From positions 1 through 22,052 of the IMG/VR virus record IMGVR_UViG_3300042989_000008: DNA of 22,052 nucleotides. One strand, written 5' to 3'. The notes under the pieces were generated by a model. The model ran no database searches. It was given only the letters and a program-made list of their open reading frames with translations, and was not told where the DNA came from. Below are positions 1-21,202 of the stretch, in pieces. How positions within the stretch are numbered: position 1 is the first letter of the stretch; every line of letters begins with the position of its first letter. The translations under genes and the position numbers were made by a program. This stretch comes from a virus.

Positions 1-1816
1 CACCGCGACCGATGTCGGCGCTGCCCCTGCCGCGCACACGCACACCGCGACCGATGTCGGCGCTGCCCCTGCCGCGCACACGCACACCGCGACCGATGTC
101 GGCGCTGCCCCTGCCGCGCACACGCACGCAATCAGCACAGTTGTGGGGCTGCAAACTGCGCTTGACGGCAAAGTCGATGCAAGCAAGCTCGGGGCCGCGT
201 TGGGGGTGGCTGAACTGGACTCGACTGGCAGGCTGAAAGCGTCGCAGATCCCAGCCATCGCGCTTGTGGATGTGAGCGCCACCGGCATGACGTTGACGGC
301 GGGCGTGCTCAAGTTGACGCAGGATGATGGTGGACCGGATGCCACCGTCGATCTGAATTCCTTCGCAACGGACATAGAACTGACCGCGGGACTGGCCGGA
401 CGGGCGCCATCGACTCACCAGCACACCGTTGCGCAGATCAGCGACGCAGGCGCGGCCGGGCGGACGCTGCTGCAGATGGCGACGATGCCGGAAATTCAAT
501 CCGCGGTGTCAGGGGCATCAGTCCGGCCGCAACTGGAAAAAGAATCCGCTGGCGACTATGACCAGTGTTTTGTCGTACTCGGAGACTCCACGGGCGATGC
601 GATCGATGAATTTCCAAGGGTATGTGCGGGCCTCATTGCCATAATTGCATCCGCCGCATATTGTACATACCGGCTGTACGATAATACGGCCGGTAAATAC
701 GGGGCTAAATCTGTGCTGGCAATAGGAGCAGGAGAGCCGTACATCACTGTAGGGGCAGATGGTCGCGGATGGTGTAGCCGAATAGAGCACGTAGGTCAGT
801 TGTCTGATATGGATCTGCGCTGTGACGTTGCGCTGACGGACTGGCAGACTGCCGCGCAGCAAAGTCTCGTCGCGCAATACGGCAGTGTTGGCTATCGCAA
901 TGCTTTCCGCTTCATGGTGTCAAACAGATATCTTGGGCTTGAGTGGGTCGAATCGGACGGCACTACATATCGTGTCGCGTGGAGTTCTGTTCAGCTCACA
1001 GTAAGCAATCTTGAGCGCAAACACGTCCGTGTCACGTTTGACCCCGACAATGGAGCAGGCGGCCGGGAAGTTAAGTTTTACACATCATCGGATGCGGGTC
1101 AAACATGGGTGCAGCTTGGCACTACGCTGACGGGTGCAGTGTCAAACCTGTACGTGGTACCCACAGTTCAAAATTACGAGCTTGGATCGACGGGCGGCCC
1201 AGTTGATGGCATGGCTGGGACCAATACCCCTGCACGCGGGACTTTTTACGGAGCGCACATTAGCCCCATCATTGACGGCGCGAACAAAGCGCCCGAGTTT
1301 GTACGGGGGTGGCTGGCGTATACAGGCATGACTGGGTTGGCATCCACTGGCGGCCATGTTGCGTTTTATAACGGATCAATCCCTGGCGCCAACATGGCGT
1401 ATATTACGGCCGGCGATCGACTGAGCCGGATGTGCCCGCGTGTTGGATCAGCGGTTGTAATAGTCAACACGTCACATAACGAGGGCCCCGTTTATATGCC
1501 TTCAAACTTTATGGCGAATTACATATCATTCCTTTCTGCAGTTGATACACGGGTCGATGTGCGGACGCTGTATTTAGTGACGCAGAACCCCCAGATAGCT
1601 CCATTGTCTGTAACACAGCAGCGTTCCCAGAGGCAGCGGGCAAATCTGATTCCAAAAATCGCGGCAGACCGCCGTGTGAACGCCTTTGTTTGTGATACGT
1701 ACCCACTGTTCGCGGGGCGTGAAGTTGAGCTGCTGGAGGTTGATGGCGTACACCCCAACGCAGCAGGTAAGGCCGTTGTGGCCGCAAAAGTCGCAAGCGT
1801 TTTGGGTATTGCATAA
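1..1816 (+). CDS. Phage fibre protein with C-terminal SGNH-hydrolase-like domain (5' end outside window)
   Basis: The reading frame is open from the first bases and ends at TAA 1814-1816, so the N-terminus lies upstream. It begins with three exact copies of TATDVGAAPAAHTH and then a GLQTALDGK segment, both typical of phage fibre shafts. The C-terminal part carries SGNH/GDSL esterase landmarks: block I reads VVLGDST (GDS at 581-589) and the last block reads DGVHPN (Asp at 1742, His at 1751). About 385 residues separate the blocks; the middle looks beta-rich and may be an inserted lectin-like sandwich. VNTSHNEG (about 1460-1483) could supply the Asn block. Such domains deacetylate surface polysaccharides, so the inferred role is binding and trimming host glycans. 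Codon use and GC are lower from about 540 to 1800 than in neighbours (661-720 is 30/60 G+C), suggesting a swapped-in domain. Whether it is a tail or head fibre is not settled. Confidence 0.8.
   Translation, partial: TATDVGAAPAAHTHTATDVGAAPAAHTHTATDVGAAPAAHTHAISTVVGLQTALDGKVDASKLGAALGVAELDSTGRLKASQIPAIALVDVSATGMTLTAGVLKLTQDDGGPDATVDLNSFATDIELTAGLAGRAPSTHQHTVAQISDAGAAGRTLLQMATMPEIQSAVSGASVRPQLEKESAGDYDQCFVVLGDSTGDAIDEFPRVCAGLIAIIASAAYCTYRLYDNTAGKYGAKSVLAIGAGEPYITVGADGRGWCSRIEHVGQLSDMDLRCDVALTDWQTAAQQSLVAQYGSVGYRNAFRFMVSNRYLGLEWVESDGTTYRVAWSSVQLTVSNLERKHVRVTFDPDNGAGGREVKFYTSSDAGQTWVQLGTTLTGAVSNLYVVPTVQNYELGSTGGPVDGMAGTNTPARGTFYGAHISPIIDGANKAPEFVRGWLAYTGMTGLASTGGHVAFYNGSIPGANMAYITAGDRLSRMCPRVGSAVVIVNTSHNEGPVYMPSNFMANYISFLSAVDTRVDVRTLYLVTQNPQIAPLSVTQQRSQRQRANLIPKIAADRRVNAFVCDTYPLFAGREVELLEVDGVHPNAAGKAVVAAKVASVLGIA
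2..127 (+). repeat. Three exact 42-bp tandem repeats in the fibre gene
   Basis: Units at 2-43, 44-85 and 86-127 are identical. Each encodes the 14 residues TATDVGAAPAAHTH in the frame of the downstream fibre. The array probably continues upstream of the window. His-Thr-His motifs of this kind occur in fibre shafts, where they can help trimer packing or bind metal. Because the unit is a multiple of three, gain or loss of copies would change fibre length without breaking the frame. Confidence 0.95.
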
Positions 1817-1847
1817 CCCCTGCCGGTGAGTATTGACCTCACCCCCT

Positions 1848-1875
1848 GACAAGGCCCGCCTCGGCGGGCTTTGTC
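1848..1875 (+). terminator. Hairpin terminator after the fibre gene
   Basis: A nearly perfect 28-base inverted repeat: GACAAGGCCCGCC faces GGCGGGCTTTGTC across a TC centre, with one G.T pair. It lies 31 bases after the fibre stop codon and before the protease/capsid gene. The TTT is part of the stem and no long T-tract follows, so termination may be partial. It separates the fibre from the head operon. Confidence 0.65.
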
Positions 1876-1949
1876 ACGCCATCAGATCCCCTCCAACCTG
1901 CACACTCCGCCCCGTGATCTGTGCAGCCCCCCCCGGCACGATCCGGCGC

Positions 1950-3938
1950 ATGCCTACCCCCAGCGCCTCCGCCACGCCCCCTCAGTCCCTGCCGATGCAG
2001 ACCCGTGAGGCGTCGATCGTCCCGTCGTCATACGACGAGGCCGAAGGGACGATCGAACTGGTGTGGACCACTGGCGCCCGCGGCATCCGCTACGACTGGT
2101 GGAAAGAGGAGCAGTACGAAGAGGAGCTGCAGGTCACCCCCGAATCCGTGGACATGACCCGGTTCGAGGCTGGCACTGTCCAGGCACTCGACAGCCACTC
2201 CACGTACAGCCTGAGCACCGTCCTCGGCCGTGCGGTCCAGGGCTGGATCACCGACGGTCAGGGCCACGCCCGCGTCAAGCTGTCCGTTGACCCCGAAAAA
2301 GCCGGTCGCATCGCTGACATCAAAGCGGGTGTGATCCGCTCCGTGAGCGTCGGCTACACGGTGCAGCGCTACGAAGTGATCGAGGCTGCTGACCGTACCG
2401 ATGGCCGCCCCATGAAGCTGGTCCGCGCCACCCGCTGGACGCCGCACGAAATCAGCTTCGTGAACGTCCCGTTCGACACAGGCAGCACCACCCGCAGCGC
2501 CGACCCGCGCACCGAATACCCCGTCCAGATCATCACCCGCTCGGCCACCGCTGGCCGCAACCTCTCGGAGCAACCCATGCCCCAATCCAACGCCGGCGGC
2601 ACCACCACCGCCACCCAGACCCAAGACGAGCTGCTCGCAGCCGAGCGCACCCGTGCGTCCGAAATCATCACCCTGTGCCGTGACGCTGGCGTGCCCGAGC
2701 AAGCTGCCGACATGATCGGCCAGGGCCTGACCGTCGAGGCGTCCGGCCTCAAGCTGCTGCGCGCGATGGCGAACAAGGACGCCGCTGCAGGTGGTCACAT
2801 CAACGTCACGACCACCCGAGACGAAGGCGCCACCCGACAGCTTGGCCTGGAAGAAGCCCTGGTCCACCGTCTCGACCCACGCGCCAAGCTCACCGACAAC
2901 GGCCGCCAGCACCGCGGCCTGTCGCTCATGGACATGGGCCGCGAGCTGCTCGATGCTGGCGGCGTCAAGACCCGCGGCATGGACCGCATGACGGTGGCAG
3001 GCTATGCGCTCCAGACCCGCAGCGCCCCCGGCTACATGGGCAGCACCGACTTCGGCGCGGTCCTGGCCAACGTCGCCAACAAGCGCATGCGCGAGGCGTA
3101 TGAGCGCATCGGCGCCACCTACAAGCTCTGGGCACGCCAGGCCGCGGCCGCTCCGGACCTGAAGGACATCAACATCGTCCAGATCAGCGATGCCCCCGGC
3201 CTGCGCAAGATCGGCGAGTCCGGCGAGTACACCTACGGTGCCTTTTCGGACGCTGGCAACAGCTACCGCATGGGCAAGGCCGGCCGCATCATCGCCTTCA
3301 CGGACGAGATGCTGATCAACGACGATCTGCGCTCCTATGACCGCATGGTCACCGCCTTCGGTGCCGCCGCTGGCGATTATGAAAACGAGCTGGTCTATGC
3401 CCTGCTGACCGGAAATGTCCCGGTGCAAGGCGCCCCGATGTTCGACGCGGCCCATGCCAACGTCGGCACCGCTGCCGCGCTCGATGTGGATTCGCTGCGC
3501 GCTGCCCGCATGTTGATGCGCAAGCAGATCGGCATGAAGAACAAGGGCGAAGGCGAAGACAAGACCCGCCCGCTCAACATCTCGCCGAAGTACCTCCTGG
3601 TCCCGAGCGACCTGGAAACCGCCGCGAACATGCTGACCAGCAGCAACTACATGCCCACCACCCAAGGCGACATCAACGAGTTCGCCGCCGGTGGCCGCAA
3701 CGCACTGGATCCGATCGTCGAGCCGCTGCTCGATGGTGCCCCGAACCGCTGGTTCCTGGCCGCCGACTCGTGGTCGCGCGTTGACACCGTCGAGTACTGC
3801 TACCTCGAAGGCCAGAACGGTCCGGTCATCACCCAAAAGCAGGGCTGGGAAGTCGATGGCGTCGAACTGAAGTGCAAGTTGTACTTCGCCGCCGCCGCAG
3901 TTGACTGGCGCGGCATGGCCCGCATGCAGCCGGCCTGA
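1950..3938 (+). CDS. Prohead protease / major capsid protein fusion
   Basis: One 662-residue frame joins an S78-type (HK97 gp4-like) maturation protease to a major capsid protein. In the protease part I place the catalytic residues at His83 (LDSHSTYS), Ser133 (RSVSVGY) and Glu167 (HEISFVNVP). Their spacing of 50 and 34 residues matches the HK97 triad. Residues about 210-290 are polar, scaffold- or delta-domain-like. The remainder, with PMFDAAHANVG and SPKYLLVPSDLE, reads as an HK97-fold or Mu-like head subunit. The protease would trim the scaffold part inside the prohead. A TTG at 1833 is in frame but lies upstream of the terminator, so I prefer ATG 1950; its ribosome-binding site is weak and ATG 1995 is an alternative. 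An internal ATG at 2577 has a better site (see separate entry). Confidence 0.9.
   Translation: MPTPSASATPPQSLPMQTREASIVPSSYDEAEGTIELVWTTGARGIRYDWWKEEQYEEELQVTPESVDMTRFEAGTVQALDSHSTYSLSTVLGRAVQGWITDGQGHARVKLSVDPEKAGRIADIKAGVIRSVSVGYTVQRYEVIEAADRTDGRPMKLVRATRWTPHEISFVNVPFDTGSTTRSADPRTEYPVQIITRSATAGRNLSEQPMPQSNAGGTTTATQTQDELLAAERTRASEIITLCRDAGVPEQAADMIGQGLTVEASGLKLLRAMANKDAAAGGHINVTTTRDEGATRQLGLEEALVHRLDPRAKLTDNGRQHRGLSLMDMGRELLDAGGVKTRGMDRMTVAGYALQTRSAPGYMGSTDFGAVLANVANKRMREAYERIGATYKLWARQAAAAPDLKDINIVQISDAPGLRKIGESGEYTYGAFSDAGNSYRMGKAGRIIAFTDEMLINDDLRSYDRMVTAFGAAAGDYENELVYALLTGNVPVQGAPMFDAAHANVGTAAALDVDSLRAARMLMRKQIGMKNKGEGEDKTRPLNISPKYLLVPSDLETAANMLTSSNYMPTTQGDINEFAAGGRNALDPIVEPLLDGAPNRWFLAADSWSRVDTVEYCYLEGQNGPVITQKQGWEVDGVELKCKLYFAAAAVDWRGMARMQPA
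2567..2579 (+). promoter_or_regulatory. Internal ribosome-binding site and start inside the protease/capsid fusion
   Basis: GGAG at 2567-2570 sits six bases before an in-frame ATG at 2577 (residue 210 of the fusion). Initiation here would make a 453-residue scaffold-plus-capsid protein without the protease. This is sequence-based inference. It would resemble lambda C/Nu3, where an internal start supplies extra structural product from a protease gene. Confidence 0.45.
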
Positions 3939-3974: not shown

Positions 3975-4307
3975 ATGATCAACTACCTCCAGCCCGGCGA
4001 CACCCTGTCGCTCCTCGCTCCCTACGCCGTCGCCTCGGGCGCGGGCGTCCGCGTCGGCGGCATCTTCGGCGTCGCCGCGAATGCGGCCTTGGCCGGCTCC
4101 TCGGTCGAGGTCAAGCGCAGCGGCGTTTTCCTGCTGCCCTGCGTCCCCGCCGATGTCGTGGCCTCGGGCGGAAAAGTCTACTGGGACGACGCCGCCAAGA
4201 CCACGACCGCCACCGCAACGGGCAACGTCCTCATCGGTGCCGCCCTCATCCCGAAGACTGCAGGCCAGATCGGCATCAGCGTCTGCCTGGACGGCGTCAT
4301 CCGCTGA
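3975..4307 (+). CDS. DUF2190-family capsid decoration protein
   Basis: A 110-residue protein beginning MINYLQPGDTLSLLAPYAV. It has the small beta-rich layout of DUF2190 proteins, including a VASGGKVYWDD segment, an alternating Thr/Ala stretch and a closing GVIR. Family members sit directly after the capsid gene and are thought to decorate or stabilise the shell, by analogy with lambda gpD. GGAG at 3963-3966 is well spaced for ATG 3975. It follows the capsid stop by 36 bases and is probably cotranscribed with it. The family assignment is from the sequence pattern and gene position; structural binding is inferred. Confidence 0.8.
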   Translation: MINYLQPGDTLSLLAPYAVASGAGVRVGGIFGVAANAALAGSSVEVKRSGVFLLPCVPADVVASGGKVYWDDAAKTTTATATGNVLIGAALIPKTAGQIGISVCLDGVIR

Positions 4308-4332
4308 TTCCCAGCCAACCGCCGCCGCGTCA

Positions 4333-4920
4333 ATGGCCTCTGCCACCAACACCGCTGCAGCTCTTCCGCTGGCGCGATTCCGCCAGCGGATCAGCGCCGC
4401 CATCGATCGCCACACCGCCAACGCGGCGGGCACGGTCGCTGGTGCCCCGGTGCGTGGCTGCTGGCGGCGCGAGTCGAACATGGTGGGCACAGAGTGGGGC
4501 GGTCACATCGGTGGCACGCTGATCACTCTATCGGTGGACGCGGGTGTGCTGCCCTCTGCATTCGGCGGTCACCCGCTCGTGCAGTCGCCAGCGCATGCGT
4601 GGCACACCGGCCCCTCCCAGCCGCTCGCCTACACCGACGCGGCTGGCAAGATCATCACAGTCCCCGGCCCCGAGTACATCGCCTCCACTGGCCCGCTGAC
4701 CGATTCCACTGGCGAGCCCCTGCTCAACATGGACGGGGAAGTCCTTGAAGGCATGGAAGTCTGCCAGGGTGACCCCCTGCCGCTGCTCTCCCGCGATACC
4801 CGCGCCATGGGCGCCCAGGTCATCATCACCGAAGGCGATGGCATCGGCGCATACAGCATCGTCGAGGTGCGCCCCGCCGACGGTGGCCGGATCACCCTGG
4901 TGCTGGAGGTCGCAGCGTGA
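4333..4920 (+). CDS. Putative head-tail connector / head completion protein
   Basis: A 195-residue protein that I do not recognise by motif. The N-terminus (about residues 1-45) is helical and basic. The rest is beta-rich with many Gly, Pro and Thr, including a HIGGTLITLSVDAG segment and a C-terminal ADGGRITLVLEVAA that looks like a barrel strand. Its place between the decoration protein and the tail-terminator candidate is where connector or joining proteins lie in lambda-like genomes. ATG 4333 is the first start after the upstream stop but has no clear Shine-Dalgarno sequence, so translation may be coupled to the upstream gene or the start may be wrong. The 3' end overlaps the next gene by four bases (GTGA). 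Confidence 0.55.
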   Translation: MASATNTAAALPLARFRQRISAAIDRHTANAAGTVAGAPVRGCWRRESNMVGTEWGGHIGGTLITLSVDAGVLPSAFGGHPLVQSPAHAWHTGPSQPLAYTDAAGKIITVPGPEYIASTGPLTDSTGEPLLNMDGEVLEGMEVCQGDPLPLLSRDTRAMGAQVIITEGDGIGAYSIVEVRPADGGRITLVLEVAA

Positions 4921-5426
4921 GCACGTTCACCCACCTCGCCGACCACCTCGCCGACCACCTGATCAGCGCCGCGATCGCCGACCTGGTCGGCTATGGCCGC
5001 GCCTCCGCTGCCCCGGAGCTGACAGCCCGGTACATCGACGTACAGCTCGGCCCGTCCCGCCAGCCCGAGCGCGAAATCCTGTTCGGCGTCACCACCTGGA
5101 TCACTGAAATCCGCCTGTCGCTGCACGCCCGCCCCGTCGCTGGCGTCCATCGCACAGCGATGCACGCCGCTGACGAACTGATGACCGACGTGCTCCGCGT
5201 GCTGCGCTGGGGTGCTGCGGGTGACGCCTACACCGACGGTCTGCGCGCCATCGGTGCGCAGGGCTACACCAGCCCCGACGGTGACCCAGGCATGGACCAG
5301 GTCGCGCCGCTGCTGATCGACCGAGATACCCATGTCGCATCTGTCCCGGTCGGCGTCATCTCCATGTCGCTCTGGATCAAGCACATGACCGAGCCCGGCA
5401 CCCTGAATCCGATTCAACTTCGCTGA
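4917..5426 (+). CDS. Putative tail terminator / tail completion protein
   Basis: A 169-residue protein starting at GTG 4917 inside a GTGA overlap, with GGAGGT at 4905-4910 as a strong ribosome-binding site. It begins with a short duplicated LADHLADHL segment. A beta-alpha pattern follows (TARYIDVQLGPS, ITEIRLSLHAR, HAADELMTDVLRVL, VGVISMSLWIKH). The size, fold rhythm and position just before the tail tube suit a minor-tail-U or DUF3168-like terminator, which caps the tube and joins it to the head. I see no diagnostic motif, so the role rests mainly on context. Confidence 0.55.
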   Translation: MSTFTHLADHLADHLISAAIADLVGYGRASAAPELTARYIDVQLGPSRQPEREILFGVTTWITEIRLSLHARPVAGVHRTAMHAADELMTDVLRVLRWGAAGDAYTDGLRAIGAQGYTSPDGDPGMDQVAPLLIDRDTHVASVPVGVISMSLWIKHMTEPGTLNPIQLR

Positions 5427-5434
5427 AAGCCCAC

Positions 5435-5650
5435 ATGCCCCGCCCGCACTGCATCCAGATCCCCGAAGGTCAATCCGCCACGCCGCCCTGTGCTGGCGAG
5501 TGGATCGAGCGCGGCAATGCCCTCTACCCCGCTGACGCCGCCACAGCCAGCGCAGCCGGCCTCCACTTCCCGCCGCCGCCGCCGCCGTCGCCAGCGCAGG
5601 CGTCTGCGCCCGCTCCATCCACCGCGCAAGCGACCCCACCGAAAAAGTAA
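5435..5650 (+). CDS. Small proline-rich protein, unknown function
   Basis: A 71-residue protein between the terminator candidate and the tail tube. The first 45 residues (MPRPHCIQIPEGQSATPPCAG onward) may form a small folded part with two Cys at positions 6 and 19. The rest is a tail of Pro, Ala and Ser with six consecutive Pro encoded by a CCG-like repeat near 5570-5587, ending in two Lys. GAAAG ten bases upstream could serve as a weak ribosome-binding site, and the gene fits the operon spacing without overlap. I do not recognise a family. It may be a minor virion or assembly protein, or a poorly conserved insertion. Confidence 0.5.
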   Translation: MPRPHCIQIPEGQSATPPCAGEWIERGNALYPADAATASAAGLHFPPPPPPSPAQASAPAPSTAQATPPKK

Positions 5651-5659
5651 GGGACCGAC

Positions 5660-6661
5660 ATGGCCTCCGCAGAACAAGTCCTGGTCCGTGCCGTCGTCGA
5701 GACGACCTCCGGCACCTTCGTCACCCCATCAGCCACGAACGCGATGCTGCTGATCAATGACGGATTCGACAGCTACAACGAACAAGAGCAGCAGAAAATC
5801 GGCTTTCTCGACGGCAAGCTGTCCCCCGAAGTCGTCATCGCTGGTGCAAGCTTCCTGAAACACAGCGTCGTTTTCGGCGCGATCGGAGGCGGCATTGCGG
5901 GCGGTGCGCCGCAGACTGACGCCTACCTCCTGGCGGCTGGCCTCGCCAAAACCATTGCAGCGGGCCGCGTCGAGTACACCATCGCCCCGTCGCCCGGTGC
6001 GAACAAGTCGCTGTCCTTTGAAAGCTACCTCGCGGGCCTGAAGTACTCGGGCAAGGGCTGCATGGGCACGCTCGATCTGTCGGTGCAAGTCAACCAGGTC
6101 GGCAAGTGCAGCTTCGGCGGGCTCGCGATCGAGCAGACTGCGCCGGTCGCTGCGGTGATCCCTGCTGACTCGTTCGTGGGCTGGCGCACACCCGTTCCCG
6201 GCTCGCCGACGCGCAGCTCGCGCATCAGTCTGGCCGCGTCCGGTGGTGTCACCTACAGCGCCGGTACGCTGTCCGGCGGCGCCACCTTCCTCTGGTCGTC
6301 CTACCAGCTCACCGGTGGCCAGTCCGTGGACAAGTCGCCCTGGTGCGGCGGTTTTGGTCTGGACATCAACAAGGCCAATCCGACCGTCAAGATCACCGTG
6401 CTGCTGACGCCTGCCGAGGCGGTGGCGATGGAGGCCCGCTACAAGGCCGGCACCGGTATCAGCATCGGTTTCAGCCACAACCTTTCGGCCACTGGCGCAG
6501 TGGTCCCGGGCGAAACGATCGTCGTTCATCACCCGAACGCGGTCATCACCAGCCTGAAAAACACCGGCAAGTTCAACGGGCAGTTCGTCGCCGAGATCGA
6601 CGCTGTCCCGAACCCGTCCTCCCCCGGACTGACCGACGGCACGCGCCTCGTCTACCTGTAA
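5660..6661 (+). CDS. Major tail tube protein
   Basis: A 333-residue protein preceded by GGGA at a good distance from ATG 5660. The sequence is rich in beta strands, Gly, Ser and Thr. It starts with a helix (AEQVLVRAVVETT) and ends with a strand pair (KFNGQFVAEIDAV), as in siphoviral tube subunits. It lies upstream of the tail chaperones and tape measure, exactly where the tube gene is expected. Subunits would stack as rings around the tape measure to form the DNA channel. It is longer than lambda gpV (246 aa), so an extra outward domain is possible; residues about 170-220 are candidates. The call rests on composition, length and position. Confidence 0.75.
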   Translation: MASAEQVLVRAVVETTSGTFVTPSATNAMLLINDGFDSYNEQEQQKIGFLDGKLSPEVVIAGASFLKHSVVFGAIGGGIAGGAPQTDAYLLAAGLAKTIAAGRVEYTIAPSPGANKSLSFESYLAGLKYSGKGCMGTLDLSVQVNQVGKCSFGGLAIEQTAPVAAVIPADSFVGWRTPVPGSPTRSSRISLAASGGVTYSAGTLSGGATFLWSSYQLTGGQSVDKSPWCGGFGLDINKANPTVKITVLLTPAEAVAMEARYKAGTGISIGFSHNLSATGAVVPGETIVVHHPNAVITSLKNTGKFNGQFVAEIDAVPNPSSPGLTDGTRLVYL

Positions 6662-6730
6662 TACCGGCGAAATCCGGCCCACTGACGGGCCGGTCCTGCC
6701 CGTCGCTCACTCCTCTGAAAGCCACCACCC

Positions 6731-8074
6731 ATGTCCTCGAACGTCACGTCCTACGAAGTCAACCTGCCCGATCTGACCACCGCCGAGCTGCTGATCGATC
6801 TGATCGGCCAGATCGACAACAAGCTGGCCAACAGCATCGGCGCCGAATCCGTCGCCCGCAACAATGGCGACGTTGCGCTGAACAACCTGATCACGGTGCT
6901 GGCCGGCCGGGTCACCGTCCTCGAAGAAACGCCGGACGTGCTGACCGAAGGCGAGCGCCGCGTGATCGAGGAAGCCCTCGACCGCCTGGTCAAGCAGGAA
7001 GGCTTCAGCTCGCTGATCGACGGTCTGAACGTCACCATCGGCGGCGTCAGCTTCAAGGCTGGCTCCGTCATCATGGCGATGCTGGCGGCCCGCAAGATCG
7101 CCCGCCACGACTACAGCAACCGCGTCGGCTACCTGCACCGCACCTACTCGGTGACCTTCACCGATGGCAGCATCTCGCAGCTCACCGCCCTGGCCACCGC
7201 GCTGACTGCGGCCGAGCTGACCACCCTGCTGGGCCGCACCGTCGCCAACGATGGCGCGCAATACGTGTTCAGCACGGAGGACTTCGGCGGCGTCCCCGCC
7301 CAGTTCGACCTGGTCTACGAGCACGAATCCGTGTCCGTCGGCGGCGTCACCAGCCTGCGCCCGATCCTCGTCCGCAAGAGCAACATCGTTGCCCTGCTGC
7401 CCGGCTTCACCACCGCGGCCCCGGTGATCCTCGGCGGCGTGGACATGACTGGCGATGGCGTGATCGGCAATCCGGTTGTCACCCCGCCGGCTGACCCGGT
7501 CGCCGCTGCGCTGGTGATCCTGACCGCTGCGCTCGCTGCGCAGGTCCAGGCTGACGCCGCTGTCGTGACCGCGCAAGACAGCGTCAACGCCGCCACCGTC
7601 GCCAACACCGACGCCCAGGCCGCCGCCACTGCAGCGCGCCCGGACGCTGAAGCAACGGTCGCCACGACCACGAACGCCTACACCAACGCACAGCTCGCCA
7701 CCTCGGCCGCTGCTGCTGCTGACGCCGATGCAGTCTCGGACGTTGCCGCCGCTGACCAGATCCTGATCGATGCCCAGGCCACGGGTGATCAGGCGCAGAT
7801 CGATGCCGCCCAGGACTCGCTGACGCAGTACCAAGCCGCCCGCGCCATCACCTCCCAGGCGCTGAGCACCGCGCAGGCGGATGAGACGCAGGCCGCGTTT
7901 GACTACACGATCGCCATCCAGTCCCTGAATGCGATCAACGCTGCCGCCGCTGCCACGTCGCAGACGCTGGCCGACTTGCTGATCGGGCTGGCTGCTGCGC
8001 AGCAGGTGGCTGGTGCGGCTGCTACCGCCGTCACGGACGCACAAGCCGTCTACGACGCCGTCCTGGCTGGCTGA
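6731..8074 (+). CDS. Tail-module protein with long Ala-rich C-terminal region, unknown
   Basis: A 447-residue protein in two parts. Residues 1-250 are mixed, with helices (TTAELLIDLIGQIDNKLAN, GERRVIEEALDRLVKQ) and strands (YSVTFTDGSISQL, FDLVYEHESVSVGG). Residues about 251-447 are low complexity, roughly one third Ala, with Asp, Gln and Thr spaced as in long helices or a coiled coil. It contains no Cys. It sits between the tail tube and the chaperones, where most siphoviruses have no gene of this size. It may decorate the tube, act in assembly, or form a fibrous appendage; none is shown. A GAAAG at 6715-6719 is a possible weak ribosome-binding site. Confidence 0.75.
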   Translation: MSSNVTSYEVNLPDLTTAELLIDLIGQIDNKLANSIGAESVARNNGDVALNNLITVLAGRVTVLEETPDVLTEGERRVIEEALDRLVKQEGFSSLIDGLNVTIGGVSFKAGSVIMAMLAARKIARHDYSNRVGYLHRTYSVTFTDGSISQLTALATALTAAELTTLLGRTVANDGAQYVFSTEDFGGVPAQFDLVYEHESVSVGGVTSLRPILVRKSNIVALLPGFTTAAPVILGGVDMTGDGVIGNPVVTPPADPVAAALVILTAALAAQVQADAAVVTAQDSVNAATVANTDAQAAATAARPDAEATVATTTNAYTNAQLATSAAAAADADAVSDVAAADQILIDAQATGDQAQIDAAQDSLTQYQAARAITSQALSTAQADETQAAFDYTIAIQSLNAINAAAAATSQTLADLLIGLAAAQQVAGAAATAVTDAQAVYDAVLAG

Positions 8075-8855: not shown

Positions 8856-11800
8856 CCAAAGAAATCAAGCTCAAGCTCACGCTCGACAATGGCCAGTTCG
8901 TCGCCACGGTCAGCAGCTCCGAGTCCGCCCTGCGTGGCATGCAGCGCACCGCGTCGTCCATCACGTTCGGCGAGATGGCCCGCGGCGCAGTGGTGCTCAC
9001 GGGCATTGCCACTGCTGCCCGCGCTGCCGCGTCGGCGATCCAGGCCATCCCCGCCAAGGGCATCAGCTTCATTGCCGACACCGAAGTCGCGCAGCTCGGC
9101 ATGGCCGGCATCCTGCAGTCCATGATCGAGATCGAGGGCAAGGCGCCCAGCTTCGCCCAGGCGCAAGACATCGCCGCCGGTGCCGTCACCCGGCTGCAGA
9201 AAGCTGCCGCCGAGACTGCCGCATCATCCAACGACCTGATCGCCACCTACCGCGCACTGCTCGGCCCTGCGCTCGCCGCTGGCATGTCGATGCAGCAGGT
9301 CGAGAAATTCACCGTTGTCGGCGCCAATGCGATCAAGAGCATGGGCATGAGCACGGGTCAGATGGTGCAAGAGCTGCGCGACCTTGCGCAAGGTGGCATC
9401 ACTGCGGCCGGATCGACCCTTGCCACCGCGCTCGGGCTCAAGGACGCCGACATCAACAAGGCCAAAGCCTCCAGCGAGGGGCTGTTCACGTTCCTGATGG
9501 GCCGCATGCAGGGCTTTGCGAGCACCTCGGGCGCCTACACCCAGACCCTGCAAGGCGGCTGGGAGGCCCTCGGCGAGCAGATGACGCAAGCCAGCGCCGC
9601 CGCCATGGCTCCGGCTGCCGAGGCTGCCAAGGGTGCGATTGCGGAAATCAGCGAGGCTCTGAAGGGCGACCAGATCAAGGAGTCCCTGAACGGGATGGGC
9701 CAGGGCGTCGCCACGCTCATCACCAGCCTGTCGGCTGGCGTCGGCATCGTGCAGCAGTACGGGGGCGCCATCGGCGCGATGGCCGCCGCCGTTGCGCTGG
9801 CGAAGTTCAGCTCACTCGCGGGCGAGATCGCCACCGCGACCAATGCCAAGATGCTGGCCGCGTCGGCGTCACGGCTGGCGGCTGCGCAGGCGATCGTCGA
9901 GGCTGGTGCCAACGACACGGTCACCCTGTCTTCGCGTGCCCAGCTCGCTGCACTGCTGGCCGAGCAGCGCGCCAAGGTGCAGGCGCTGTTCCAGGAACAA
10001 GCCCTCACCGCCGCGAAGCTCCGCAGCGCCGAAGCCACCGCCGCCCAGCTCGTCGGGCAGGCCCGCCTGAACGCACTGGAGCAGCAGGTGCTGCCGCTCC
10101 GCCAGCAACACGCACAGCAGACCACCGCGCTCGAACAAGGGCAGCAGCGACTCGCCGGGGCGACAAACGCCGCCAGCGCCGCCACCCGCGCAATGGGCCT
10201 GGTTGTCGGTGCCCTTGGTGGCCCGATTGGCATCGCCATCACTGCCGCCGCGCTGCTTGCTGGCGCGTTCATGTCGGCCCGATCTGAGGCTGAGAAGCTG
10301 GGCAAGACCAAGCTCTCTGTCGAGCGCGTGGAATCCGCGCTGTCCAGCGGTGGCAAGGTGGATCAGACCGATGCAAGCCGGTTGCAGTCGGAGCTGTCGG
10401 AGGCAAAAGAAAAGCGCGATGGCCTGCTGGCCGAATCACGCAAGCGGTCGAGCATGTACGACCGGTCCAAGGGACTTTTCGGCGGTGACTCGAATGTCGA
10501 GAAACGAGCGGCTGAGCTGGCGCAGGCGGAAGCCGAGGTCAAGAAGTTCGAGGCGCTGACTGGTCGCGTTGAAGCAGCACAGCAGCGCGGCAGTGCATCG
10601 GCCTCGGGCATCGGCTTGCGCGGGGGCGTCTCTTCGACCGCACTGGATGAGATGCTGTCGCACGTCAAGACTGCCGAGGGCGTCAAGAAGGAAGGCGCCG
10701 AGCGGATCCAGGCGCTGGAGACCATGGCGAACGCCGAGCGGGCGCTGATGCTGAAGCGCAGCGCCACAGCGGCCGAGCTTGCCCAGTTCGATGCCAAGGT
10801 GTCAGGAGCCAAGACAGGCATGCAGCGCGACCTGACGCTTGAGCTGCAGGGCATCGCCAGCAAGACCGCCAAGGCCGCCAAGGGACTGGGCGCCACCGAA
10901 ACCGACACCCATGCCAGCCAGATCGAGCGCGCAGGCGCCGGGCTGCGCACTGCGCAACTAAAGGCAGCCGCGCAAGAGCGGGTGCAGGTGCTTGAGACTG
11001 AGCAGCGCACCGCCGACCACCTCCACCAGATGGGCCTCACCGGGGTCACGGAGTACGAAACCGAGCGCGTGCGCATCCAGCGCGCCAAGCTCGCCGAGCG
11101 CATGACGCTGATCGACGCCGAGATCGCAGCCGAGGAATCCCGCAAACCGAAAAGCGCGGCGGACAAGATCCAGGTGCAGCGCCGAATCGTCGATCTCAAG
11201 GCCGATCGCAGCGCCATCACTGCCGAAATGGCTGGCGCAGCGTCCGGCGGGGCTGCTGCTGCCGAGGCCCGCAAGCTGGACGATCAGCGGGCTATCGCCA
11301 CCGAGACCGCCCAGATCTGGCAAGCCGCCAACGCCCAGATCACCCAGCTCCGCAACCAGAACAGCCAGGCCGCCATCGGTGCGATCACCGACCCCGTGGC
11401 AAAGCTGCGCGCCGAGAGTGCCGCACGGGTCGCCGAGCTGTACAGCTCGGCGGACGAGTTGACGAAGGGCCTGGAGCTGAAAATCTCCCTCACGGCCGAT
11501 CCGGGCCAGCGCGAGATGCTGCGCACGCAGGTGTCCAGCATCGCCGAGGAAACAGGCCGTGCCATCGCGCTGGAGAACACCGGGTTGACCGAGCGCCTGA
11601 AGCCGGGCTGGCAGACCATGGTCGAGGGCTGGGCCGATGCGAACAAGCTGATGCGCGAATCCAGCGACCGCACCATGGACATGCTGGTCAAGGGCGGTGA
11701 AGACGCCTTCGCCGAGTTCGTCACCACCGGGAAGATCAGCGTCAAGAGCTTGGCCAACTCGATGATTTCCGAGATGGCCCGCACCGAATACCGCAAGTTT

Positions 11801-13594: not shown

Positions 13595-14022
13595 ACACGA
13601 TGATCACCCACACCGCCCACACCACCCGCAACGCCGCACTGGCCGACTTCCTGACCAGGTGGAGCAAGGACGGGCGCTTTTCCTGGACCGAGCGCCACTG
13701 CTGTCACATGCCCGCTGCGTGGGTCCGCGAAGCCGAGGTCGGCATGGTCGATATGCCGCGCACCGACTCGGCGCGCGCCGCAGTGCGCACCGTGGCCGCG
13801 CATGGGGATCTGGTCGGCGCGGTGTCGCATGTCATCGGCCGCCCGGCGCTCGCTGCTGCCGAAGCCCAGCCCGGTGACGTGGTGGCGTTCGACGCTGGCC
13901 CGCTCGGGCTTGTCGGCACAGTGGGCATCGCCATCGGCTCCGGCTTCGTGGCGGTCTGTGGTGGAGAGACGATCACGCTGCACCTGCTCGCCGATGCGCG
14001 GGCGTGCTGGAGGATCGCATGA
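13591..14022 (+). CDS. NlpC/P60-like (DUF6950-type) tail tip protein
   Basis: A 143-residue protein with a FSWTERHCCHMPAAWV segment near residues 30-45. It matches the Trp-x(n)-Cys-helix start of NlpC/P60-like folds, with Cys37 or Cys38 as the nucleophile candidate. QPGDVVAFDAGPLGLVGTVGIAIG follows, equivalent to the GD(V/L)V strand before the usual His; the clear Gly-His-Val motif of active enzymes is not present. Such proteins lie between the hub and the J-like protein, and may locally cut peptidoglycan during genome entry or have become structural. Both ends overlap neighbours by four bases, so it is translated in a tight chain. Confidence 0.65.
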   Translation: MNTMITHTAHTTRNAALADFLTRWSKDGRFSWTERHCCHMPAAWVREAEVGMVDMPRTDSARAAVRTVAAHGDLVGAVSHVIGRPALAAAEAQPGDVVAFDAGPLGLVGTVGIAIGSGFVAVCGGETITLHLLADARACWRIA

Positions 14023-17000
14023 TCCGCCGCATCCTCCCCTCGGCGCTGCTGGCCGCCGGGCTGCTGTTGCACGCGACCCCTGCTGCCGCTGATCCCATCA
14101 CCGCCATTGTCGCGATCGCCCAGGTGGTCGCCGTGTCCGGCACCACCGCCATGATTGCCGGTGTGGCCCTGACGACCATCGCCACCTATGCCGCGCTCGG
14201 CGCTGCGCTGGTCGGTGGTGTGCTCGCTCGCAAGAAAGCCAAGGAGGCCGCCCGCGCTGCCCGCAACGCCACCCGCGAAGCGATGCAAGAGCGCACGATC
14301 GTGATGCAGTCGTCCGAGCCTGTGCCCCGGGTGATCTACGGACGCTGTGCCGTCGGCGGGGATGTGATCGATCGGTTCTCATCCCCGAAAACCTACCTCG
14401 CCGATGGCGGCGTGATGAAGACCCGGCCGGACGCGCTGCAGCATATCGTCATCGCTGTGGCGCACCACCAGTGCCAGGCGCTCTACCGCATCCACCTCGG
14501 TGGCCAGTGGTACACCGTGCCGGTCGGTGGAGGCTGGCTCGGTGATCCGTCGCTCGAACAAAAGCGCGCCGCGACCGTCACCCGCTCCACCGTCTTCCCA
14601 GTTTCCGGCTCGGCCATCATCGCGCTGCCGGACCCTGCTGCCACGCTGTCCGTGGTGTCGATCACGCGGGACTCCGGGGGCAGTCTCGGCACCGAGACCG
14701 CGCCGACCGGGTGGACCGTCTCCGGTGCCACCATCTCCGGCGTGCCCGCCGGAACGTGGGATGTCACCTGCCAGATCACCGCCAACCGCTCGACCGTGCG
14801 CGTCGAGTTCATGACCGGGGCCGTTACCCAGACCGTCAATCCCTACCTGACCGGGATCAACGCCGCCCGCTGGCCCGCATCGAAGCGCCTGCAGGGCATC
14901 GCCTACGTCGTGCTCACGCTCGACCTCGACGACGCACAATTCCAAGGCGGTCTTCCCTCTGACTTGTCCTTCGACATCTCGGGGCGCATGGTGCTTGACC
15001 CCCAGACCAACGTGACCGCCTGGAGCGACAACACCGCCCTGTGCGTGTACGACTGGCTGCGCTCCGAGTGGGGCTACAGCCTCGCCGTGGCCGACATCGA
15101 CACCGCCTCCGTGATCGCTGCCGCGAATTCCTGCGACGCCATCGTCGGGCGTCCGATGAGCACCGATTCCGTGGCGACAGGCCGATTTTCGGTGTGCAAC
15201 GGCTCTTTCCGCGTGTCCGATGACCGAGCTTCGATCCTGTCCGAGCTGACCGAAAACATGGGCGGCTTCGCTTCGCCGGGCGCGGTCTGGACGGTCAGCG
15301 CGGGCGCGTGGACATCCTCGGTCATGTCGCTGTCCGACGCTGACGCGATGGCGCCCATCCAGATCGTGCGCCAGTCCGCGCCCCATGATGAGGCGTTCAA
15401 CAGCGCGCGCGCCTCGATCGTCCGCGCTGGCAAGCGCGAGCCCAGCGACGTGGACCCCTACCAAGCCATGTCCTACGTCACCGCCGACGGTGGCGCCGAG
15501 TGGCAGACCTTCAGCTTCCCGTTCTGCTCAGACCCAGGCCAGGCGCGCCACCTGATGCGCGTGTTCGTCGAGCAGGCCCGCGCCGGGATGATCATCCAGT
15601 ACACCGGTGGCATGCGCCTGTGGCCGCTGCAGCCCGGTGACCGGGTGACGATCACCGCCGACGATTACATCGCGGTCTGGGGCGCCCCAGGCAAGACCTT
15701 CCGCGTCCTCGATCGCCAGTGGGCACCCGGTCAGCCGGTGTCGCTGACGCTGCAGGAGGATGTCGCCAGCACCTACGACAGCGCCGATGCAACGGACCCG
15801 GACCCTGCGCCGAACACCTCACTGCCGTCGCCCCGCCTTGTCGATGTCCCTTCCGGGCTGGTCGCGTCGAGCGGCACCGCCACGCTGCTGCAGATGCAGG
15901 ATGGCACCATCGTCCCACGGGTGCGCATGACCTGGAACGCGCCTGTCACGCTCTACATGCAGTCGGCGGGAGCCTCCACCGAACTCCGCTGGCGCAGCGT
16001 CACCGACACCGCATGGCAGACCGAGCGCCTGCCCCGCGATGCCGCCTCGGCCATGATTGGCGGCGTGCAGGATCTGGACATGCTCGTGATCGAGCTGCGC
16101 CACATCAACACCGTCGGCGTCGAATCCCAGTGGGTCACGATCGCCCACCGCGTCATCGGCAAGAGCGCTCCGCCGTCGGCGGTGGTCGGGCTGGCTGCGT
16201 CGGCAGTCGGCGGTGATGTGCTGGTGACCTGGACCGCCTGCCCGGATCTCGACTATGCATCGACCGAGCTGCGAGTCGGCCCCACCTTCGCGACTGCCGG
16301 GCGCATCGGGCAAGCTGGCGGATCTGGGGCGGACCGGTTCACATGGATCAACCCACCCGTCGGCACGCACACGATCTGGGCGCAGCACCAGGACGAGTCC
16401 GGCAACGACGGGCCGGTTTCCAGCACCACGGTCGTGGCCACCGCTGCCGCTGGATCGGCGACTGGCGGCAACCAGCTCTTCAACTCGGACTTCTCGCTCG
16501 GGCGGCGCGGCTGGACACTGATCAACGGGGGCGTGGTCGGTGCTCGTGGCACAAACTTGGCCGGATGGACCATCGCAACCCTAACCCCGATTTCTGGCAG
16601 CACCATTTTCTTTTCCCAGGGCGGGCCCATTGGCAACGCAAATGCGTACTGCGAAGAGTGGAGCGACCCCATCCCAGTCACTCCGCTCGCCTGGTATTGC
16701 GCCAGCGCTTACACCGGAGCGCACCGCTGTCGAGTCGCTGTTTTCGCCTACTATTTTGACGCGGCGGGTGCTGTTGTCGGGCATAGCTACGGGTCGCCAG
16801 CGACAGGAGAAAACACCGAGAGCGTCGATGCGATGAGCGGGGGCACAACGCTGTCCGGCTACAAGCGGATTTACGGGACCGGGCAAGCACCAGCGACCGC
16901 ACGCACTGCGCGGCTTGTCATGCGCAAGTACGACACCGCGGCGGGACAGGCGACTAGTTACATGTTCATCTGCCGGGCGATGTTCGAGCCCGCGGCGTCC

Positions 17001-17975
17001 GCTGCCTCGACGCCGGGCGCGTGGTCACCCGGGCCGATCGGCTACACCGGTGATCTTGACGCCACCAATGGCGCCCCGATCGGCACGCTGGTGGGTAGCA
17101 CGCTCGCGCAGACCGTCGAGAGCAACGCCGCCGGGGCGCTGCAAGGCGTCAACGACATCAACGCCGATGGCAAATGGTCGCCGATCGAAAAGGCCGCGCT
17201 GGTCGTGGACTGGAACAGGTTGAACGGATCGGTCACGCCGCTGGTGGCGCAAGCCAATGTGTACGGCATCGTGACCGAGCGCAACACCTTCACAAGCGCA
17301 GTCAACGCGCTGTCCGTGTACCTGACCGGGCTGGCCCCACCATGGAACGACACGACCACCACCACCACCATCTTGCGCGCCACTGCGGACCAGCTCTGGG
17401 GCAATGCCTACAACGCGCTGACCGCGCTGCAGACGCGCATCGACGATGAGGCAGGCAAGCGGGCGACATGGACGACCGTCACTGGCGTCGGCAAGCCGCA
17501 GGACAACGCGACAGTCGGTGCCACCTTCGGCACCAACATCGCCGGGCAGATCACCCCGGCGAACGTCACGACATTTCTGGCCAGCAACACGATTTCCGAA
17601 AGCGCGGCTGTCACGATATCGGGGACGCTCGGTACCGGGTCCAACTCCCCGATTGCATCGTGTAACGGTGGTGGGCTAGTGCTTGTCCTGGTGGTCGGTG
17701 CAGTCACTGTCGCAGGTGAGCCCAGCTCGTCCAACTCTCCGACCATCGGCAAGATTGCGCTGGTCATCAACGGGGCCGAGGTCGGCTACTCGACCGCAGT
17801 GAGCGGGGTCGCCGGGGCGGCCAACCAGACCATCATGGGCTCGGCTGTCGTGGCGTGGCAGGGCGCGCTGGGGGTGCCCCTGTCTGCCTACATCAAAGCC
17901 ATACGGACGTATGGCAACCAGGCGGTCGAAATCACCAACGGGACCACGCTCTCGATCATCAGCCTCAAGCGGTAG
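14019..17975 (+). CDS. J-like tail tip / host specificity protein
   Basis: A 1318-residue protein; ATG 14019 is chosen because GGAGG at 14009-14013 is ideally spaced and the start overlaps the upstream stop (ATGA). The N-terminus is signal-peptide-like (MIRRILPSALLAAGLLL, Ala-rich to Ala24) followed by a second hydrophobic stretch to about residue 70. The centre has a phage-tail_3-like region at about residues 405-580 (RASILSELTENMGGF, GDRVTITADDY). A fibronectin-III-like domain lies at about 716-809, then a module at about 815-1000 (NQLFNSDFSLGRRGW) that looks like a carbohydrate-binding sandwich. Next is DINADGKWSPIEK at about residue 1046, a Ca-loop-like motif seen in fibres, and a beta C-terminus. 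It would form the central tip and contact the receptor. The module near 16480-17000 has lower GC. Confidence 0.85.
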   Translation: MIRRILPSALLAAGLLLHATPAAADPITAIVAIAQVVAVSGTTAMIAGVALTTIATYAALGAALVGGVLARKKAKEAARAARNATREAMQERTIVMQSSEPVPRVIYGRCAVGGDVIDRFSSPKTYLADGGVMKTRPDALQHIVIAVAHHQCQALYRIHLGGQWYTVPVGGGWLGDPSLEQKRAATVTRSTVFPVSGSAIIALPDPAATLSVVSITRDSGGSLGTETAPTGWTVSGATISGVPAGTWDVTCQITANRSTVRVEFMTGAVTQTVNPYLTGINAARWPASKRLQGIAYVVLTLDLDDAQFQGGLPSDLSFDISGRMVLDPQTNVTAWSDNTALCVYDWLRSEWGYSLAVADIDTASVIAAANSCDAIVGRPMSTDSVATGRFSVCNGSFRVSDDRASILSELTENMGGFASPGAVWTVSAGAWTSSVMSLSDADAMAPIQIVRQSAPHDEAFNSARASIVRAGKREPSDVDPYQAMSYVTADGGAEWQTFSFPFCSDPGQARHLMRVFVEQARAGMIIQYTGGMRLWPLQPGDRVTITADDYIAVWGAPGKTFRVLDRQWAPGQPVSLTLQEDVASTYDSADATDPDPAPNTSLPSPRLVDVPSGLVASSGTATLLQMQDGTIVPRVRMTWNAPVTLYMQSAGASTELRWRSVTDTAWQTERLPRDAASAMIGGVQDLDMLVIELRHINTVGVESQWVTIAHRVIGKSAPPSAVVGLAASAVGGDVLVTWTACPDLDYASTELRVGPTFATAGRIGQAGGSGADRFTWINPPVGTHTIWAQHQDESGNDGPVSSTTVVATAAAGSATGGNQLFNSDFSLGRRGWTLINGGVVGARGTNLAGWTIATLTPISGSTIFFSQGGPIGNANAYCEEWSDPIPVTPLAWYCASAYTGAHRCRVAVFAYYFDAAGAVVGHSYGSPATGENTESVDAMSGGTTLSGYKRIYGTGQAPATARTARLVMRKYDTAAGQATSYMFICRAMFEPAASAASTPGAWSPGPIGYTGDLDATNGAPIGTLVGSTLAQTVESNAAGALQGVNDINADGKWSPIEKAALVVDWNRLNGSVTPLVAQANVYGIVTERNTFTSAVNALSVYLTGLAPPWNDTTTTTTILRATADQLWGNAYNALTALQTRIDDEAGKRATWTTVTGVGKPQDNATVGATFGTNIAGQITPANVTTFLASNTISESAAVTISGTLGTGSNSPIASCNGGGLVLVLVVGAVTVAGEPSSSNSPTIGKIALVINGAEVGYSTAVSGVAGAANQTIMGSAVVAWQGALGVPLSAYIKAIRTYGNQAVEITNGTTLSIISLKR

Positions 17976-17993
17976 CCGATAGCCGATATCCAA

Positions 17994-18569
17994 ATGCAGC
18001 AATACCCCGAAATCAACGCCCTCGGCGAGCTGGTCTGCCTGCGCAGCGACAGCAACTACAGCCGGATGCTTGCCAGCATCGCGCCGGGCAATTCCCTGCT
18101 GATCGACCTGCCTCCTGCCGTCCCGAGCTACTGGGATGAGTCGATCCAGGCGTGGGTCAAGAAGCCCGAGCAGCCATCACCCCGTCACACGTGGCGTGCC
18201 CAGACACGGGCATGGACGGATGACAGGTCACTCGACGAGGCCAAGGCCGACAAAATCGCCGAGATGCGGATCGAGCGTGACCGCGCGGACGCGGCGCAGA
18301 TCAACATCGGCGGCTACAGCTACGACGCACACCCTGCAGCGATGGCTGCCATTTGCCAGGAGCTGCAGCTCGCTGCGCTGACGCCGACGGCTGTCATCCA
18401 GTGGACCCTGGCCAGCAACCTTGTCCGGTCGCACACGCTGCTGCAACTCCGGGCCGTGGCTGTCGCCATCCGTGCGCGCAACACCGCCAGCCGGGCGCGA
18501 TACGAAGCCCGCCGCGCAAGCATCAGCACTGCAACGACCGCCGATGCGGTCTCGCTGGTTGTCTGGTGA
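17994..18569 (+). CDS. DUF4376-like tail fibre assembly-type protein
   Basis: A 191-residue protein right after the tip protein. The N-terminal half (MQQYPEINALGELVCL, LPPAVPSYWDESIQAWVKKP) resembles the domain that fibre-assembly proteins use to hold a fibre tip. The C-terminal half has the DUF4376 pattern: a helix rich in Lys, Glu and Arg (EAKADKIAEMRIERDRADAA), then INIGGYSYDAHPAAMAAI and a final helical part. Such proteins accompany fibres as chaperones or small tip components. It lacks a clear Shine-Dalgarno sequence. Its place after the J-like gene, rather than after the fibre at the window start, suggests it serves the tip protein or a minor fibre. Confidence 0.7.
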   Translation: MQQYPEINALGELVCLRSDSNYSRMLASIAPGNSLLIDLPPAVPSYWDESIQAWVKKPEQPSPRHTWRAQTRAWTDDRSLDEAKADKIAEMRIERDRADAAQINIGGYSYDAHPAAMAAICQELQLAALTPTAVIQWTLASNLVRSHTLLQLRAVAVAIRARNTASRARYEARRASISTATTADAVSLVVW

Positions 18570-20717: not shown

Positions 20718-20734
20718 GGTCTGGCGCGGTCAGG

Positions 20735-20947
20735 TCAGACTGCCGACCAGGCAGTGCGCCCGTTGACGTCATCCCACAGCGTGGCGCCCTTGGCGACTGG
20801 TGCGGCCGTCTTGACAACGCACAGGCTCGCGTCCTTGCTCGCAGCCTTGCTTGCTGCCGATTGGGTGGCGTGGGCGCTGATGACGCGCATTTCGTGGTCA
20901 CGATGGCCAGGGCGCTTGACAGTTGCGTAGTGGGTGCTGGTGGTCAT
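20735..20947 (-). CDS. Unknown 70-residue basic protein (minus strand)
   Basis: Start codon complement at 20945-20947, preceded on its strand by AAGGAGATCGAC, a strong ribosome-binding site five bases from ATG. The protein (MTTSTHYATVKRPGHRDHEM onward) is basic early, has a helical middle rich in Ala, Ser and Lys, and ends LWDDVNGRTAWSAV. No membrane span or known domain is recognised. It is the second gene of a leftward pair, 42 bases after the first, and is followed by the terminator at 20692-20715. The strong translation signal argues it is real. An accessory or anti-defence role is possible but only a guess. Confidence 0.6.
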   Translation of the reverse strand: MTTSTHYATVKRPGHRDHEMRVISAHATQSAASKAASKDASLCVVKTAAPVAKGATLWDDVNGRTAWSAV

Positions 20948-20962
20948 GTCGATCTCCTTGGG
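20942..20962 (-). repeat. Duplicated translation-start leader, copy 1
   Basis: These 21 bases are identical to 21197-21217. On the minus strand they read CCCAAGGAGATCGACATGAC plus a C, covering the ribosome-binding site, spacer and first codons. The two genes therefore share an exact initiation cassette although their coding parts differ. Confidence 0.9.
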
Positions 20963-20989
20963 GCGGGTGGCTTGCGGGGCTGGATCAGT

Positions 20990-21202
20990 TCAGGATCCGA
21001 GGATGACGCGGCCAGCCTCTTCGGCTCCGACGTACTCGACGTAGGAGACCAGCCACTCGGCATCGGTGTCTGCGCCTTCCAGGGCCGCCAGCGTGGCGTC
21101 GTCCAGCAGGGCCGCAACAGCTTGTGCGTCGATGTCGGCAGTGTTGCGCTCGACGGTCGCGCTGCTGAACGGGTTGATTAGGGTGATGGTGGATGCGGTC
21201 AT
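20990..21202 (-). CDS. Unknown 70-residue acidic protein (minus strand)
   Basis: Start complement at 21200-21202, with the same leader (AAGGAGATCGACATGAC) as the downstream minus-strand gene. The protein starts MTASTITLINPFSSATVERN, then forms probable helices (DAQAVAALLDDATLAALEG, WLVSYVEYVGAEEAG) and ends RVILGS. It is strongly acidic overall, with no Cys, no membrane span and no recognised family. It is the first gene of the leftward pair and is driven from the control region at about 21240-21320. Small, acidic, single-domain proteins at phage accessory loci are often host-takeover or anti-defence proteins. Here that is inference from size, charge and place only. Confidence 0.6.
   Translation of the reverse strand: MTASTITLINPFSSATVERNTADIDAQAVAALLDDATLAALEGADTDAEWLVSYVEYVGAEEAGRVILGS

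Follow-up and report, generated by a model that had tools for sequence, protein, structure and literature searches.

The DNA analysed here (the window) comprises the 22,052 bases of the IMG/VR record IMGVR_UViG_3300042989_000008 and opens inside a gene that probably encodes a long, likely trimeric virion fibre. This fibre is plausibly borne on the head or neck, and its C-terminal tip, a replaceable cassette, would be an SGNH (GDSL-type) carbohydrate O-acetylesterase with a lectin nested within it. The record is a fragment, and the 5′ end of the fibre gene is missing at the contig start. The frame (2..1816, on the plus strand like all features given below; TAA stop at 1814-1816) is open from base 2, so the start of the gene lies off the contig, within a series of 42-bp tandem repeats of which three exact copies, encoding HTHTATDVGAAPAA (HxH shaft repeats), occupy positions 1..127. 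A preliminary description had placed the start at an ATG at position 143, where the codon is in fact GTG and internal to this frame; its numbering of Ser149, Asp534 and His537, counted from that position, is nevertheless correct. The rest of the shaft spans 128..529, and fibre residues 113-152 match a PHROG tail protein. The missing 5′ part of the gene is available from a relative, G001 (IMGVR_UViG_3300043406_000058, 44,342 bases), which is approximately 94% identical to the source record from position 1777 on. The contig break falls in the 42-bp repeat region in both records; G001 in fact both begins and ends within this 42-bp repeat of its fibre gene.

The C-terminal end of the fibre ORF forms an SGNH-hydrolase domain recognizable by four blocks, beginning with GDST at 581, NGSIPG at 1370, SHN at 1472 and DGVHPN at 1742; the first and last of these had been located at the same positions (581-592 and 1742-1759) in the preliminary description. 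The domain is divided into a first part (557..724), which contains β1 with block I (nucleophile Ser at 587-589), a helix and β2, and a second part (1346..1813), which contains NGSIPG (1370-1387), SHN (1472-1480), TQNP (1580-1591) and DGVHPN (1742-1759). A tblastn search of phage records with the tip as query revealed full-length relatives in Arthrobacter phage Shoya (32% identity over 94% of the tip), Cellulophaga phage phi17:2 (22% over 89%), Arthrobacter phage Casserole and Curtobacterium phage Teagster. When the tip was aligned with five phage homologues of 20-30% identity, 16 columns were invariant among the six sequences, including G18, D19, S20, T21, G286, H316, N317, D405 and H408 (numbering of the tip, 530-1813). 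Thus, these sequences share the complete GDST nucleophile motif of block I, the second Gly of block II (oxyanion hole), the His-Asn of block III, in which the usual G-x-N-D is not kept, and the Asp, the His and the following Pro of block V.

Two profile searches bear on this assignment. The Pfam family Lipase_GDSL_2 (PF13472) matches the tip with an E-value of 2.6e-6 and a score of 28.5 bits, which is below the curated cut-off of 32.9. This match begins at profile position 25 and covers block II onwards, and the lack of a match to positions 1-24 is expected if an insert separates them from the rest. A family profile built from the six sequences matches solved SGNH lipases from block II to block V (1yzf, E 6e-7). 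In a structure model predicted from 47 aligned window and locus sequences (mean pLDDT 66.8, pTM 0.65), the SGNH half has pLDDT values of approximately 35-67, and its predicted order of strands and helices fits an α/β/α fold. An earlier five-sequence model was poor (pLDDT 41.7), and no claims on the fold are based on it. The homologues give no sign of another fold: they bear SGNH signatures, and Foldseek aligns the whole model with the Shoya 'hydrolase' prediction at TMq 0.68 and with the protein of phi17:2 at TMq 0.63. The original assignment of the fibre tip as a split SGNH hydrolase domain is largely right by motifs and conservation, although the Pfam score below its cut-off, the low-confidence modelling of the SGNH half and the unusual block III weigh against it.

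The initial proposal that the SGNH fold is interrupted by a large, β-rich, lectin-like insert is borne out by the alignment, the model and Foldseek. Of the 385 residues counted at first between the first and last blocks, approximately 205 belong to an insert located between blocks I and II, and the remainder is normal core. The extent of the insert follows from a comparison of the spacing between these two blocks, which is 227-277 residues in split relatives and 263 here, with that in gp24 of Arthrobacter phage RootBeer, where the blocks are some 60 residues apart instead of about 257 and no insert is present. RootBeer gp24 shares its fibre N-terminus with Shoya (44% identity as far as the point of insertion), and block II then follows directly. 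By this comparison the insert occupies roughly 725..1345, with a confidently predicted core at about 797-1279. A profile scan of IMG/VR yielded 51 loci, most of which match the insert alone, and the module occurs, either once or as a tandem array of up to four, in long phage proteins that carry no SGNH motifs; the insert is thus an independent module.

The insert is modelled mostly at pLDDT 80-97, and its Foldseek matches are sialidase CBM40 (E 2.8e-7), neurexin, agrin and laminin LG domains (E 1e-7 to 1e-5). On the model, then, its predicted fold is that of a concanavalin-A/laminin-G-like lectin, with sugar binding as the predicted function. By sequence, Laminin_G_3 (PF13385) matches 2 of 47 insert members, with a best E-value of 0.0043, and the member from this fibre is unmatched. 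At the same insertion point of the SGNH domain, Gordonia phages Matteo, DirtyBoi and MagicMan carry a different sequence, by which this point apparently takes inserts repeatedly. A scan of the genome_contigs collection for further relatives with a three-sequence profile found no true relative, and a single-protein scan of viral_contigs with the tip as query gave no match.

Comparison with G001 reveals that the tip is a cassette, swapped at a constant position behind the shaft. The end of the G001 shaft is 83% identical to positions 428-516, and beyond the junction, near 516-521, the two tips have no detectable similarity. The G001 tip contains a different SGNH domain, with motifs GSSN, NRSVGGS, FNEP and DGAH, and after it a C-terminal domain of roughly 200 residues, LamG-like by eye. 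Identity between the two fibre loci returns at the stop codon, directly after which 27 bases (1817..1843), the 3′ flank of the cassette, are identical and hold the inverted repeat GGTGAG-N7-CTCACC (1825-1843); a small stem-loop after the fibre stop is conserved in both records. With unrelated tips lying between a shared shaft end and a shared flank at the stop, the tip has evidently been swapped as a whole. The 27-bp element was considered as a target of site-specific recombination, and this was rejected: the source record holds no second copy, and the only copy in viral_contigs is in G001, so that homologous exchange through short shared flanks is preferred. No silent alternative tips were found elsewhere in either record, apart from one weak match (E 0.07). 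Between the fibre and capsid genes lies a GC-rich, terminator-like hairpin of 13 pairs (1847..1876), which is absent from the consensus scan list; the hairpin at the corresponding position in G001 is a different one, and both folds have z = -5.3.

Three further features concern G001. Positions 16501-17000, within the large tail-tip gene, are 69% identical to G001 as against 89-99% in the surrounding sequence, a second tip-like divergence. Positions 20720-21180, slightly upstream of a possible integrase ORF at the record end, do not align to G001 at all. Upstream of the fibre gene of G001 (L020:9530-10000), a 75-aa ORF resembles the N-terminus of L112, the protein at the corresponding site in Sphaerotilus natans. 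Immediately beyond its TGA stop, the fibre ORF begins in the same frame (TTG 9758, ATG 9774), and the 75-aa ORF could represent a separate small protein, part of a split gene or the product of stop read-through.

The tip had also been described as foreign in composition, and the measurements agree: its GC content is 0.541 as compared with 0.65-0.70 for the genes, its GC3 is 0.535 against a minimum of 0.78 among 224 equal-length windows from other genes, and its codons are rarer (mean log codon adaptiveness -1.14, the lowest value among those windows being -0.59). As had been noted, the shaft (GC 0.667) is phage-like. From this contrast the tip was initially taken to be recently acquired. Acquisition stands in the sense of an exchanged cassette, given the unrelated tip in a close relative, whereas the low GC does not date the event. 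As proof of recent acquisition it can be discarded, since the unrelated G001 tip is equally GC-poor (0.558, with a shaft at 0.708), and a shared GC-poor source or selection acting on tips explains the composition as well as recent arrival does. Other proteins encoded at the same genomic site lie on average only 2.6 GC points below their capsid gene.

That site is within the head module. In G001 the gene order is terminase, portal, 75-aa ORF, fibre, protease-capsid fusion and decoration, and the fibre gene thus lies between the portal gene and the gene for the protease-major capsid fusion (1833..3938 in the window, with the true start probably at 1950-1995; phrog_4523, E 3e-189; PF25209). Nothing separates the portal gene from the capsid gene in RcKemmy, S1 and LPPA33, three cultured relatives in which the two abut or overlap. 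We surveyed 160 relatives selected by capsid similarity as the best 80 loci from each of two collections, which is not an unbiased sample. The portal-to-capsid distance was measurable in 141 of these and was at most 171 bp in 104, 0.4-1 kb in 7 and 1.9-4.6 kb in 29; one negative value was excluded as artefactual. When mapped on a capsid tree (FastTree, with long-branch warnings), the occupied state requires at least about 11 changes and is more clustered than in shuffles. In the cultured Shewanella sp. phage 1/44 (L276), the interval contains small ORFs, of which three are encoded on the opposite strand; variability of the site thus extends to cultured phages. Judged by its capsid protein, a Sphaerotilus natans prophage is the closest cultured relative, which makes a burkholderial host likely for the phage studied here; the L112 locus of S. 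natans ATCC 13338 is also the nearest cultured case of an occupied site.

The proteins encoded at this site are diverse. SGNH domains were identified by Pfam at L207, L189, L212 (weak), L247 and L255 and by motif at L223, LamG domains at L247, L194, L108 and L229, and Kelch, BNR and fn3 domains at L259, L200 and L204, respectively. The L255 protein (4218-5528) has a T4 gp9/10-like baseplate N-terminus and an apparently split GDSL domain, in which residues 110-187 match PF13472 profile positions 1-80 and residues 363-423 match PF00657 profile positions 138-206; these matches suggest that its fold is interrupted by an insert at another position. At L203, a head-decoration domain (PF09956, E 5e-16; phrog_122) is fused to a weakly matched β-helix. 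The gene for this fusion (4675-6756) sits between the portal and capsid genes, and a normal decoration gene is present separately at 9094-9426. The duplicated decoration domain may serve as an anchor, and by analogy this protein provides the best hint that the site serves the capsid surface. We tentatively propose, at a little under an even chance, that the portal/protease-capsid interval in this broad group of lambda-type head modules is a dedicated slot, repeatedly gained and lost, for glycan-binding or glycan-modifying proteins (SGNH esterases, LamG lectins, and Kelch, BNR and β-helix proteins) that are displayed on the capsid or neck and whose tips are swapped.

Because its gene occupies this variable site, the fibre is plausibly borne on the head or neck and not on the tail. 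The strongest competing explanation, to which we assign a chance somewhat below even, is that the enzyme belongs to an ordinary tail fibre or side fibre, the gene of which is merely located in the head module. The HxH shaft repeats and the PHROG 'tail protein' matches would suit such a fibre, as would the baseplate-like N-terminus at L255 and the annotation of related SGNH modules as minor tail proteins or tail fibers in Gordonia and Arthrobacter phages. Since such modules occur in tail proteins elsewhere (minor tail proteins in Gordonia phages, a tail fiber protein in Shoya), the module by itself does not fix the choice between head and tail. A tail location is countered by the position of the gene between portal and capsid, away from the tail module, which has its own fibre-like genes at 14004-18569, and by the occurrence of a capsid-decoration N-terminus in one occupant of the site. 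In this fibre, no recognizable decoration domain that could act as a capsid-binding anchor was found; L203 is the occupant in which such a domain is present. Overall, the gene neighbourhood leans toward head or neck over tail.

Trimerization, esterase activity, substrate and virion position are inferred here, and the fibre would most likely act as follows. The fibre would present the tip to the cell, and the nested lectin would hold an O-acetylated surface polysaccharide beside the SGNH active site. There, the Ser would attack the acetyl ester, assisted by the His/Asp pair and by the Gly/Asn oxyanion hole. Deacetylation could then result in a reversible first attachment, exposure of a receptor or a cleared way. 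The chemistry proposed is drawn from established SGNH knowledge and from published phage enzymes, G7C gp63.1 and Klebsiella prophage fibres (PMC13123978); for this fibre, deacetylase activity and receptor modification are predicted.

It is unlikely that the SGNH core is instead a catalytically dead scaffold and the protein purely a lectin-type adhesin. Loss of activity is known among carbohydrate-binding relatives of esterases, and this general precedent, the departure of block III from G-x-N-D and the more confident modelling of the insert than of the core would all accommodate such a protein. However, six divergent phages, one of them infecting Cellulophaga, all retain the Ser, Gly, Asn, Asp and His without change, and such invariance would not be expected had catalysis been lost. 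Slightly less likely again is a moron-like or prophage-expressed secreted esterase that is not a virion protein, for which the optional site, the adjacent terminator-like hairpin and the putative integrase-like ORF at the record end (suggestive of a temperate phage) might speak, and against which stand the repetitive fibre shaft, the annotation of homologues as structural or tail proteins and the G001 fibre N-terminus, in which nothing suggests a secretion signal.

SGNH deacetylase fibres are increasingly regarded as determinants of which capsules a temperate phage can pass. To this picture, a virion fibre of the kind favoured here adds a lectin nested within the catalytic fold of a deacetylase-type fibre, and with natural relatives that lack the insert or have swapped tips, the contribution of the lectin can be tested cleanly. 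Greater interest than in the split enzyme alone lies in the tip exchange and in the variability of the portal-capsid site. The site would offer a simple route to surface-recognition proteins that annotation has missed, and it raises the testable question of whether ordinary siphophage heads take part in host recognition; if the slot reading is true, these phages would possess, in addition to the tail, a second system of host recognition on the head.

Several known systems share parts of this arrangement. The head fibres, or spikes, of RcGTA bind the host capsule (PMC7296036) and, by description, are a precedent for polysaccharide recognition from the head; in that account they are not enzymes, unlike the putative esterase tip described here. 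The Neisseria peptidoglycan O-acetylesterase Ape is an SGNH esterase with an additional CBM35-like carbohydrate-binding domain (PMC6174289). Its likeness to the tip is one of domain content, and it differs in being a periplasmic cell-wall enzyme and in having a CBM35-like rather than a ConA-like partner. In the CE20 enzymes XacXaeA and Fl8CE20_II, a β-sandwich is inserted in the SGNH domain and joins in substrate recognition and the active site (PMC12313940). An SGNH domain split by a β-sandwich ancillary domain represents the same principle as this tip, but CE20 enzymes have extra N- and C-terminal β-sandwich domains and a GH2-like ancillary domain, whereas here a ConA/LamG-like insert is found on a phage fibre. 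Assignment to CE20 was ruled out, as the flanking β-sandwich domains are absent: the shaft lies directly before the tip, and nothing follows the block V helix. Among phages, Shoya gp25 (tail fiber protein/hydrolase, YP_010649645.1) has a tip that is homologous over the extent given above and carries its insert at the same point, yet it has a different N-terminus, and its gene follows the lysis genes instead of lying between portal and capsid. Esterase activity has been demonstrated for the SGNH receptor-binding proteins gp63.1 of E. coli phage G7C and those of Klebsiella prophages 164_08 and 174_38 (PMC13123978). In the portion of their account available, a nested lectin is not mentioned, in contrast to this tip; by description, they resemble it in bearing a C-terminal SGNH domain on a phage fibre. 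In placing an SGNH enzyme at the C-terminal end of a repetitive fibre, the protein described here is like the phage SGNH deacetylase receptor-binding proteins.
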